From Bdellovibrio sp. (GTDB taxonomy: Bacteria; Myxococcota; SpSt-1050), in the NCBI GenBank assembly GCA_020725805.1, contig DYEF01000009.1, forward strand, positions 1 through 50,335: 50,335 nucleotides of DNA, read 5' to 3'. How positions within the stretch are numbered: position 1 is the stretch's first letter; each line of letters opens with the position of its first letter. Made by a program: the position numbers and the translations under genes. The notes below the pieces were generated by a model, which had not been told where the DNA came from, did no database searches, and was given only the letters and a program-made list of their open reading frames with translations. Shown here in pieces: positions 33,824 through 37,769 of the stretch.

Positions 33824-34441
33824 TTATCTGCAATCGTTATAATTATCAGCCTTCGGACAATCTGTTTTACCCGCAGGACACTTTACAAAAAAAGGCATAG
33901 GAACATCTGTCCAGTAGGATATCTCCCTGTCCTCATTATAACCCCATACTGCAAACCAGTATAACTGTTTATAGTCGAGACTGACACAGTAATTATCGGC
34001 ATCCTTATCTCCTCTGTCCCTGTGAACCTTACAGGAAGTGAGGTCAACAGGTTCGCCATTCTCGTTCGTCCTGACTCCGTCGACCAGATTTATTCTCCCC
34101 TCAAGAGCCCTTCCGTCAGAGCGCATACCGGAAGTCCACATCCATACGATATCATTGTTATTTATAAGTCTGCCCGTCTGTTCCTGTGGTTTTGTTTTGA
34201 ATATTGCAGCAACTACCCTCTTGGAACCGGATATCCCTATCTCTACTTTTCCGTCTACCTGAGTCCCGAACTTGAAAGGCTCGGTATTTACATCCACCTG
34301 CGAACACTTCACATCCGGAACTATAACCACAACTTTCGTAGCATTCCCGAAGGTCCTGCTTGTCTCCGGTTCGCTTCCGAAAATGCCACAGGAAAGTATC
34401 GTCAGTGAAATCAACAAAAGTAGCAATGAATACTTCTTCAT
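33824..34441 (-). CDS. predicted outer-envelope lipoprotein
   Basis: The 205-residue product starts with a signal peptide and lipobox (LTILSC near residue 17) and is not recognised. The mature protein is beta-rich with KVVVIVPDVKCSQ near 35, VDGKVEIGISGSKRVVAAIF, WFAVWGYNEDREISYW and a C-terminal Cys cluster (VKCPAGKTDCPKADNYNDC). It could be a Fn3/Ig-like domain with disulfides. I prefer the second ATG at 34441, seven bases after GGAG, over 34447. It is the last gene of a three-gene operon after a beta-barrel protein and a secreted protein. Confidence 0.75.
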   Translation of the reverse strand: MKKYSLLLLLISLTILSCGIFGSEPETSRTFGNATKVVVIVPDVKCSQVDVNTEPFKFGTQVDGKVEIGISGSKRVVAAIFKTKPQEQTGRLINNNDIVWMWTSGMRSDGRALEGRINLVDGVRTNENGEPVDLTSCKVHRDRGDKDADNYCVSLDYKQLYWFAVWGYNEDREISYWTDVPMPFFVKCPAGKTDCPKADNYNDCR

Positions 34442-34451
34442 AATCATACTC

Positions 34452-35123
34452 CTAAAAGTTTACAAAAACACCGACTTCGGCAATAAACCCGTCCGTATTG
34501 AAATCAACCGGCTTGTTTGTCGGCTGACCAAACAGATTGAACTCCTTATACATAAATTTATAGGTAGGAATAAACAGATAGGAAAGTTCACCGTAAACTG
34601 TGACCTTTGAACGGGGATATATAAGGATACCGGCACCGGGCTTAATATAAAGATCCCCCGACCAGTCAGAGACAGATGTAATATGGGTAGAATCTGTCTT
34701 TACATCCGAGACATTCTGGATTGCGAGACCAATGTCTCCTGAGAAATACGGCCACATATACTTCATCTTCGACATTCTGGATGCCGGATTGATCAAAAAC
34801 TGCATACCAATTCTGACCGCATTAAGTGATAATTCTGTTTTATAATCAGAAGGGAGTGCCGCCATAGGCATATCCTTGAGCTTAACTGACCCGTTATGAT
34901 GATTGTAGTAGAGAGACGGCCCTATCAATGCAAAATCAGACGCCTGATAATGATATGCACCTCCGAACTGCCAGCCGATAAAGTCGAGATTGGACCAGGG
35001 ATTAATGACCATCCCTGCCGAGAGATTTGCTGTGTGACCTTCCTTGGGCAGTTTAATCTGCGCCTGAGCAAACAGAGGCAAAGATACAAATAAAACAAGA
35101 CAAACCAAAGTAACCTTTTTCAT
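34452..35123 (-). CDS. outer-membrane beta-barrel protein
   Basis: The 223-residue product starts with a signal peptide ending LFAQAQ and has alternating aromatic and polar beta strands: GWQFGGAYHYQASDFALIGP, YKTELSLNAVRIGMQFLI, MWPYFSGDIGLAIQNV, KVTVYGELSYLFIPTY. The final strand ends VGVFVNF. A C-terminal Phe is the classic BAM-recognition residue. Eight strands in an OmpA-like barrel would fit, but the number is a guess. The start has AAGGAG. It sits 12 bp after the secreted-protein gene and 10 bp before the lipoprotein gene, so the three are one transcript. Confidence 0.85.
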   Translation of the reverse strand: MKKVTLVCLVLFVSLPLFAQAQIKLPKEGHTANLSAGMVINPWSNLDFIGWQFGGAYHYQASDFALIGPSLYYNHHNGSVKLKDMPMAALPSDYKTELSLNAVRIGMQFLINPASRMSKMKYMWPYFSGDIGLAIQNVSDVKTDSTHITSVSDWSGDLYIKPGAGILIYPRSKVTVYGELSYLFIPTYKFMYKEFNLFGQPTNKPVDFNTDGFIAEVGVFVNF

Positions 35124-35135
35124 ATCCGCTCCTTC

Positions 35136-35912
35136 TCAGTCCCTCTTCGGGAAAGTCGGTGTATTTATCCTCAGAGACTGTTTGTAGACTGATGATACAG
35201 ACTCCTTCTCCCTGATATAAATCTCGATTTCACTAAATGCCACGACACAGTATACATTCAGGTCTTCCTGACTTTTAAGACTCAGATATGATGTAAAAAG
35301 AAAATCTCCCATAATAAACTTATCTTTTTCCCTCAGATTCTTACCCTTTTCGGGAGGAATCTTGAGCTTAAGATACAGGTCTACCCCGTTTTCGGAAGGG
35401 ACAAATCTCAGATTGGTCTGCTCCTCGGGGGGCTGATAAATGACATTATCCAGTAAAGGCAGTGTCATCAACTTTATATCGAAATACTGTTCCTCGGGAT
35501 TATACTGGGGCAGTACTACAGGTACATTCTTGACACTATAATATTTTTTCCTTTTATAAATAGTCTCCATAAGCTGTATCTTCTTTACATTCAGGTCATG
35601 CGAAGCACCCTCCATTCTCTTCTTGTACGCCTCATCCGTCTCAAACTCACCCTTTGGCTTTATCTCCTCTTTTAGTATCTCCCTGTACTGATTCAGATAA
35701 TTATTCGTCATTTCTGTCAGAATTTTACTGACATCCTCAAATTTGATTTCCTCTGTCTGAACTCCTGCAGGTTTTACACTCTTCTTATTCTCATTCTTCT
35801 TCTCTTCCTTTCCCGGTGCAGGTCTTATCTTCTTTGTCTCCTTTGCAAAAGATTCGACGTTCAAGATTAAAACCAAAATAATAAGAAAAATCAAAATACC
35901 GCTTCTCTTCAT
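35136..35912 (-). CDS. secreted or periplasmic protein of unknown function
   Basis: The 258-residue protein has a signal peptide (hydrophobic stretch to about residue 22, ending VESFAKE), a Lys/Glu/Pro linker, then a helical segment (ILTEMTNNYLNQYREILKEE) and repeating beta strands (KYYSVKNVPVVLPQYNPEEQYF, NLRFVPSENGVDLYLKLKI). I do not recognise it. It is first in the operon with the barrel and lipoprotein and has a good AGGAGGAG site. A promoter region shared with the divergent 34-residue gene lies upstream (35913-36037). Confidence 0.75.
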   Translation of the reverse strand: MKRSGILIFLIILVLILNVESFAKETKKIRPAPGKEEKKNENKKSVKPAGVQTEEIKFEDVSKILTEMTNNYLNQYREILKEEIKPKGEFETDEAYKKRMEGASHDLNVKKIQLMETIYKRKKYYSVKNVPVVLPQYNPEEQYFDIKLMTLPLLDNVIYQPPEEQTNLRFVPSENGVDLYLKLKIPPEKGKNLREKDKFIMGDFLFTSYLSLKSQEDLNVYCVVAFSEIEIYIREKESVSSVYKQSLRINTPTFPKRD

Positions 35913-35981: not shown

Positions 35982-36010
35982 TTGCAAAATCCATAAATTT
36001 GCTGTAATAC
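35982..36010 (+). promoter_or_regulatory. promoter of the small basic protein gene
   Basis: TTGCAA (35982-35987), 17 bp, TAATAC (36005-36010) preceded by TG. Transcription would start near 36017, 21 bases before the ATG at 36038 and just upstream of the strong GGAGG site at 36026-36030. Confidence 0.55.
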
Positions 36011-36037
36011 CACAGCCTTTGTAACGGAGGAAATACT

Positions 36038-36142
36038 ATGAAGAGAAGCTACAAGCACAGAAACAGAAAAAAATGCAACAGACTCAAGGCATACAAAAAG
36101 ACCCGTGCAAGAAAGGCAACTCTCAGAAGAAAAGCAGATTAA
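36038..36142 (+). CDS. 34-residue very basic protein, ribosomal-protein-like
   Basis: An ATG with an ideal ribosome-binding site (CGGAGG, 7 bases upstream) and its own promoter opens a 34-codon frame ending TAA. Nineteen of 34 residues are Lys, Arg or His, and the product has a single Cys. The run RKKCNRLKAYKKTR-ARKATLRRK has the spacing of the Lys/Arg-rich motif of the COX24/AURKAIP1 (mS38) proteins that also occur as tiny bacterial ribosome-associated proteins. It is not L34, L36 or bTHX by sequence memory. A hairpin follows at 36183-36229. The small size explains why it escapes standard gene finding. Ribosomal function is inference. Confidence 0.72.
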   Translation: MKRSYKHRNRKKCNRLKAYKKTRARKATLRRKAD

Positions 36143-36182
36143 ATCTGCCCAAACCTTCACAACCATATCTGCCAGAAAAAAC

Positions 36183-36235
36183 ACAGAATTAATGTATTTA
36201 ACGTACAATAAACCGTACAAGAATTCTGTATTCTT
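36183..36235 (+). terminator. possible terminator after the small basic gene
   Basis: ACAGAATT (36183-36190) pairs with AATTCTGT (36222-36229), followed by ATTCTT. An inner GTAC/GTAC pairing may extend the structure. The remaining gap (36236-36360) shows no gene. Confidence 0.4.
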
Positions 36236-36360: not shown

Positions 36361-36654
36361 CTATTTTCTTTTCTTCTTTTTCGGTTTTGCCTTACTCTGG
36401 ATATTCTGCTGTTTTTCGTTCGAGAGTTTCTGCCCGAGACGCTCTATCTCCTTTGCCTGTACCTCGAGGTCATTCTTTACGAGTGCGAGGTCTTTAGAGA
36501 ATATTGCTATAGATTCCTCTGTCTTCTGAAGTTCGCCCTTAATCTGCCCTATCTCGGATTTCAGGTGTTCAATCTCATCCTTATATCCGCATCCTGCAAG
36601 CAGAAGAATGACGGGAACCACCAGTACAGCTGAAATCAGAAAATATTTACTCAT
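36361..36654 (-). CDS. small coiled-coil lipoprotein with Lys-rich C-terminus
   Basis: The 97-residue product has a signal peptide and a textbook lipobox, LLAGC, near residue 22. The mature part is a continuous heptad-type coiled coil (HLKSEIGQIKGELQKTEESI, LALVKNDLEVQAKEIERLGQ) of about 50 residues ending in KPKKKKRK. The architecture resembles Lpp (Braun lipoprotein), which ends in a Lys that can be linked to peptidoglycan, but the tail here is longer. Start at MSKYF gives the signal peptide; a longer frame to 36690 is possible. It follows the glycan-binding-domain protein by 87 bp. Confidence 0.75.
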   Translation of the reverse strand: MSKYFLISAVLVVPVILLLAGCGYKDEIEHLKSEIGQIKGELQKTEESIAIFSKDLALVKNDLEVQAKEIERLGQKLSNEKQQNIQSKAKPKKKKRK

Positions 36655-36741
36655 TTTATTAAAATTCGTTCTGTCTGAAATTATGCTCATTTATATTAAT
36701 CCCTTCACTAACGGAGTAACGTCGGTTTCTATAATTCTGCT

Positions 36742-37686
36742 TTACTTCTCACCTTTCTTATCTTCCTCATTAGGCGTGCCCTCTTTACCCTTGCCGGTAT
36801 CCTGTTTATACTTTTCAGGGTCGATAAAGTCAAAAATAAATATCTCACTTATATAGGCATCATCATTCTTGTCGCCCAGATATACGGATGTTATCTGAAT
36901 CTTGAGTTCCTTTACCTGTGTCTGCCTGACATCAAAGAAGCTGCAGACAGGCCTGTTTGGAAACGACATGTCCACCTCTTCCTCGGATATTGAAAACAGA
37001 AGGGAATTATCCTCCTCTCCCTTGGGGGGTTCTATCTGCATTTTTATTTTTCCTCTGTGGACGCGGTTGTTGTCCTTGTAATTTGGTATTCCGAAAAGCC
37101 CCGGTATAACACCTACCATACCAATATTTACGGCTTTTTTGAACTTTATCACAACGCTTTCATCAATCCCTGTACCGTCGGCCCCCTCTGCCCATGCGGT
37201 ATCAAAGTTGAAATCAATTACATTCTGGGCCTTTATGCCTTCTTTCTTCAAAAGCGAAGATGCCTCAGGTTTCAGTTCACCAAACGGAGTTTTGCCATTT
37301 TTCAGAAAGTCAAAATCCTTTCCGTATTCCATCTTTATAGTCTTTTTGACAGGCATCGTGGTATACTGTTCAAGAGAAACGGTTATTAACCTGCCATCGA
37401 CCTTGATATCCTTGGGTACATATTTGCTGAATATAACACCGTATGCCGGCATCCATAGTCTCTCTGTTCTGGAGAATATTACAATACCTCCCGAGTTTTC
37501 AGCCTCATCGCCGGGATACTGAAAACCTATTATTACAACATCTCCCGCGAAGTCAGCCTTCTTTTCAAACGTAATAATATATGGTCCGAAAAGATTCTCA
37601 AAGCAGAGAGACTGTTTCAGTTCCTGTGCACCAAGAGGAAGAAGAGAGAAAAGCAGAATGAATAACATACCGATAAACCTTATCAT
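36742..37686 (-). CDS. exported protein with discoidin/NADase-type glycan-binding-like domain
   Basis: The 314-residue product has a signal peptide (MLFILLFSLLPLGAQ). Residues about 30-140 are a beta-rich domain of unknown type. The region about 150-300 (QNVIDFNFDTAWAEGADGTG, VVIKFKKAVNIGMVGVIPG, NNRVHRGKIKMQIE, ELKIQITSVYLGDKNDDAYI, SEIFIFDF) matches the pattern of F5/8-type or NADase-type glycan-binding beta-sandwich domains. The acidic, Lys-rich end (KGKEGTPNEEDKKGEK) is disordered. I prefer ATG at 37686, seven bases after GAGG, over 37692. It is divergent from the dehydratase cassette. Confidence 0.8.
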   Translation of the reverse strand: MIRFIGMLFILLFSLLPLGAQELKQSLCFENLFGPYIITFEKKADFAGDVVIIGFQYPGDEAENSGGIVIFSRTERLWMPAYGVIFSKYVPKDIKVDGRLITVSLEQYTTMPVKKTIKMEYGKDFDFLKNGKTPFGELKPEASSLLKKEGIKAQNVIDFNFDTAWAEGADGTGIDESVVIKFKKAVNIGMVGVIPGLFGIPNYKDNNRVHRGKIKMQIEPPKGEEDNSLLFSISEEEVDMSFPNRPVCSFFDVRQTQVKELKIQITSVYLGDKNDDAYISEIFIFDFIDPEKYKQDTGKGKEGTPNEEDKKGEK

Positions 37687-37769
37687 TACCATACCTCACA
37701 TTTCCTCTTATTCTCTTAAATCATAACTTATAAGTTGTCAAATATTTTGAAAACGACTCAAATGATTAG

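Follow-up and report, generated by a model that had tools for sequence, protein, structure and literature searches.

Two questions are raised by the locus at positions 36038-36142 (plus strand, stop codon included) of the 50,335-nt stretch analysed here, hereafter the window: does this short frame encode a protein, and does the product belong to the COX24-type ribosomal proteins? The first-pass annotation had described it as an overlooked small gene for a basic protein, with a Lys/Arg spacing resembling the COX24/AURKAIP1 motif. The frame translates into MKRSYKHRNRKKCNRLKAYKKTRARKATLRRKAD, 34 residues followed by a stop codon, in which Lys and Arg account for 50% of the positions and the pI is 11.8. 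Such a composition is rare, as only two of the 390 mechanical ORFs of at least 30 amino acids in the window reach a Lys+Arg content of at least 45%, the small gene being one of the two. Hydrophobic residues are nearly absent, and the hydrophobic moment is 0.1. Structure prediction from two sequences gave a single helix spanning residues 5-33 with a mean pLDDT of 90, a lone helix that carries little information on binding partners. The gene had also been considered too short for standard callers, which is overstated, since its 105 nt exceed the usual lower limit of 90 nt of common gene callers.

We compared the locus with its counterpart in another species of this genus, represented by the metagenome-assembled genome "Deltaproteobacteria bacterium isolate SKW273" (G001, contig JAOAFA010000016.1). 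This congener carries an intact ortholog at the same place, free of internal stops and encoding a protein identical at 30 of 34 residues, so that the conserved ORF expected in relatives was found in one congener. The two genes differ by 25 base changes, 19 of which fall on third codon positions (binomial p = 1.6e-5), and the 20 changed codons comprise 16 synonymous and 4 nonsynonymous ones. In 20,000 trials that distributed these changes randomly, 14.8 amino-acid changes arose on average and never fewer than 7, as against the 4 observed, and two thirds of the trials introduced a stop codon, of which there is none in the real pair. DNA identity amounts to 76% within the ORF, 53% in the 62 alignment columns before it, 39% further upstream and 31% after it. 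It is true that the frame is short and that A+G-rich DNA easily yields Lys/Arg-rich frames. However, that the frame is open by chance or belongs to a non-coding element is scarcely credible in view of the predominance of synonymous changes, the fact that none of the 20,000 simulations gave four or fewer amino-acid changes, the stops that interrupt the other reading frames in one or both species, and the lack of an Rfam match, on which a noncoding RNA was rejected. Judged by this substitution pattern, the frame is a genuine protein-coding gene under strong purifying selection, and its description as an overlooked gene for a small basic protein was correct. In this species pair, the 88% identity of the 34-residue protein is close to that of bL34 (44/49, 90%) and bS21 (57/61, 93%) and above that of five neighbouring proteins (62-81%), a rate of conservation that refers to one pair only.

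The signals around the gene were only partly as annotated. A Shine-Dalgarno-like GGAGG, read directly from the sequence at 36026-36030 (plus strand), is present 7 nt ahead of the ATG, and the congener has GGGAGG at the same place. Further upstream, TTGCAA (35982-35987) and TAATAC (36005-36010), separated by a 17-nt spacer, form a probable promoter at 35982-36010 (plus strand). A promoter ahead of the gene is likely because TGTTGCAAA and CTGTAA keep the same spacing in the congener, where the remaining upstream region is not conserved; the motif occurs once in the window and not at all in shuffled sequences. Its presence is therefore credible, but the strength attributed to it is not, as TTGCAA matches TTGACA at 4/6 positions and TAATAC matches TATAAT at 3/6 (7/12 together), and a consensus promoter scan did not list it. 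The hairpin said to follow the gene corresponds to an A+T-rich inverted repeat at 36177-36235 with 20-nt arms that are 80% complementary. It is unconvincing as a terminator: it lacks a T-run, it folds with unremarkable energy (z = -1.52), a terminator scan listed no plus-strand terminator there, and the congener showed no inverted repeat at the corresponding place. A leader peptide was rejected because no gene lies directly downstream on the same strand.

Contrary to the original description, the gene does not stand between divergent genes, since only the upstream neighbour at 35136-35912 (minus strand) is divergent and the downstream one at 36361-36690 (minus strand) is convergent. The former encodes an uncharacterised 258-residue protein with an N-terminal hydrophobic segment and no Pfam match above cut-off, 67% identical in the congener; the latter encodes a lipoprotein-like product (62% identical) with a coiled coil and a Lys-rich tail. 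Beyond it lies the gene at 36742-37692 (minus strand) for a 316-residue protein with a NADase_transloc (F5/8 type C-like) domain (PF25302, E = 5.5e-19), which is 78% identical in the congener and 41% identical in a same-order genome without the small gene (G002). These three minus-strand genes are the shared, syntenic neighbours of the small gene in both species, and no translation gene adjoins it among the ORFs listed around 36038-36142. Two further uncharacterised minus-strand genes, at 33824-34447 (lipoprotein-like product) and 34452-35123, adjoin 35136-35912; their order is kept in the congener, with 78% and 81% identity, respectively. Relatives of the NADase_transloc-domain protein occur in several further families of the phylum.

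A profile search based on the two sequences found the small gene in 2 of 195 phylum genomes, both of one genus, and no further credible match among the 195, G002 included. There, the coiled-coil gene adjoins the NADase_transloc gene as in the window, with no small basic ORF beside them. Weak matches elsewhere in the phylum (E > 0.04) appear to be due to chance: translation of the eleven top-ranking matches from the alignment search and of nine from the single-protein search revealed no ORF of this kind. BLAST found no phage or plasmid match, although its low-complexity filter weakens both searches, and an exact degenerate-pattern search of viral contigs gave no match. The suggestion that the gene had been missed in the whole lineage is hence not borne out.

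We next examined membership in the COX24/AURKAIP1/mS38/bS22 family. The 34-residue protein resembles bS22 (AURKAIP1/COX24; PF08213, NF047430) in its length of 33-34 residues, in having about half or more Lys and Arg, in its helix and in its own short gene. It differs in that it had no Pfam, NCBIfam or PDB match, with nothing reported by hmmscan even at E = 10, whereas real bS22 as positive controls matched PF08213 at 4e-12 and NF047430 at 3e-17, and Mycobacterium and Cutibacterium bS22 were readily found in the Pfam search. The profile comparison proposed earlier with COX24/AURKAIP1, bTHX and small ribosomal families thus returned no match, with strong matches for the COX24 controls. We also scored the protein against its own shuffles with a profile made from the six bS22/mS38 sequences of PDB entries, and 6609 of 10,000 shuffles scored at least as high. 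The Lys/Arg spacing is therefore at chance level for a sequence with 50% Lys/Arg and no evidence of kinship, as shuffles score as well. With a profile of the actinobacterial and yeast subset, 2432 of 10,000 shuffles equalled or exceeded the protein, and 639 did so for the protein of the congener. The actinobacterial bS22 pair recognised yeast mS38 (0/3000 shuffles), but the actinobacterial and yeast profile failed on Borrelia or Flavobacterium bS22, and the reverse failed, too. According to cryo-EM structures, the actinobacterial, yeast, Borrelia and Flavobacterium proteins all occupy one pocket (PMC10618245, PMC10085706). The sequence test is accordingly weak, because bS22 proteins of distant groups in one pocket fail to recognise each other. 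Still, PF08213 had no match above cut-off in 146 phylum genomes, and the remaining likeness, in basicity, helical form and a length of about 30-34 residues, is common to any basic helix. Membership was rejected by the profile, database and shuffle tests and, as far as sequence comparison reaches, is not supported.

Other small ribosomal families fared no better. Like eL41/eS32, the protein would be a tiny basic helix, but eL41 has 25 residues, and the profile score of the 34-residue protein lies within the shuffle range (3979 shuffles as good). bTHX (PF17070), which only some bacteria possess, is a ribosomal peptide that is likewise tiny and basic; a relation was rejected, as the protein has no PF17070 match, and none above cut-off was found in the host genome (G000), the congener or G002. 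The 34-residue protein shares an MKR[ST][YF] start and high basicity with bL34 (PF00468), but a normal bL34 gene sits elsewhere in the genome and the score is again within the shuffle range (7880 as good); a bL34 paralog or replacement was rejected on account of the separate bL34 in both the host and the congener. Likewise, bS21 is a separate normal gene, and a relation to it was rejected.

What could such a protein do? We considered a core RNA-binding role mainly because of its conservation near that of bL34 and bS21 in the one pair. A short, very basic single-helix peptide would bind structured RNA, most likely on the ribosome, where its positive charge may neutralise rRNA phosphates; its transcript would carry this gene alone. 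It would thereby act like bS22, bL37, bTHX and eL41, very small basic peptides, helical or extended, that are embedded in rRNA. There are precedents in the tiny ribosomal proteins of Borrelia, unannotated in the genome and seen only by cryo-EM (PMC10618245), and in the short bS22 and bL37 of Cutibacterium (PMC10085706). We put at roughly 45% the probability that the 34-residue protein works by binding structured RNA, its likeliest role being that of an accessory ribosomal protein specific to this lineage. The level of conservation, the pI, the Lys/Arg content and the predicted helix speak for the ribosomal reading; the absence of a sequence link to any ribosomal family and of a translation gene beside it speak against it. 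Restriction to one genus among the genomes searched, with a same-order genome lacking the gene, would also be unusual for a ribosomal protein. Our best guess for the product is a convergent tiny rRNA-binding protein. More tentatively, it would be a hitherto undescribed ribosomal protein that a single deltaproteobacterial genus possesses and that may fill the bS22/mS38/eL41 pocket by independent origin.

The predicted single basic helix would fit DNA or other RNA as well. The main rival reading, a small peptide of the nucleoid or one that binds RNA in general, acting in DNA compaction or as an RNA chaperone, would agree with the charge, the helix and the lineage restriction, but we regard it as rather unlikely in view of the near-ribosomal conservation in the one comparable pair, and nothing else suggests this role. 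Known Lys-rich bacterial H1-like proteins are, moreover, longer and built of Ala/Pro/Lys repeats. Less probable still is a divergent or convergent counterpart of bS22/mS38 (COX24 type) or eL41 in the pocket between 16S h2/h27/h44/h45 and 23S H67/H68. Its size (34 residues against 33 in bS22), equal charge and same predicted helix would suit such a counterpart, the profile tests have little power to link distant bS22 groups, and no other bS22 was found in the host with PF08213 or with a Bacteroidota-type profile, the latter search being run without a positive control. However, true bS22 match Pfam and NCBIfam strongly and this protein does not; it scores below most shuffles against bS22/mS38 and is unremarkable against eL41. 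Vertical inheritance of bS22 is unlikely with a COX24 domain above cut-off in 0 of 146 phylum genomes. The strong positive charge would also suit a cationic antimicrobial peptide or a small toxin-like protein, and bS22 and bL37 added as free peptides inhibit bacterial growth (PMC10085706). We nevertheless consider this very improbable, as there is neither a signal peptide nor an immunity gene in the same transcript, and the very low hydrophobicity and hydrophobic moment and the strong purifying selection argue against it; action on membranes is unlikely because hydrophobic residues are nearly absent.

If the 34-residue protein is ribosomal, it would be another case of separate lineages recruiting tiny basic peptides to their ribosomes, and sequence families such as COX24 would undercount tiny ribosomal peptides. 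Ribosomal or not, the locus shows clearly how comparative evidence can establish a short gene.
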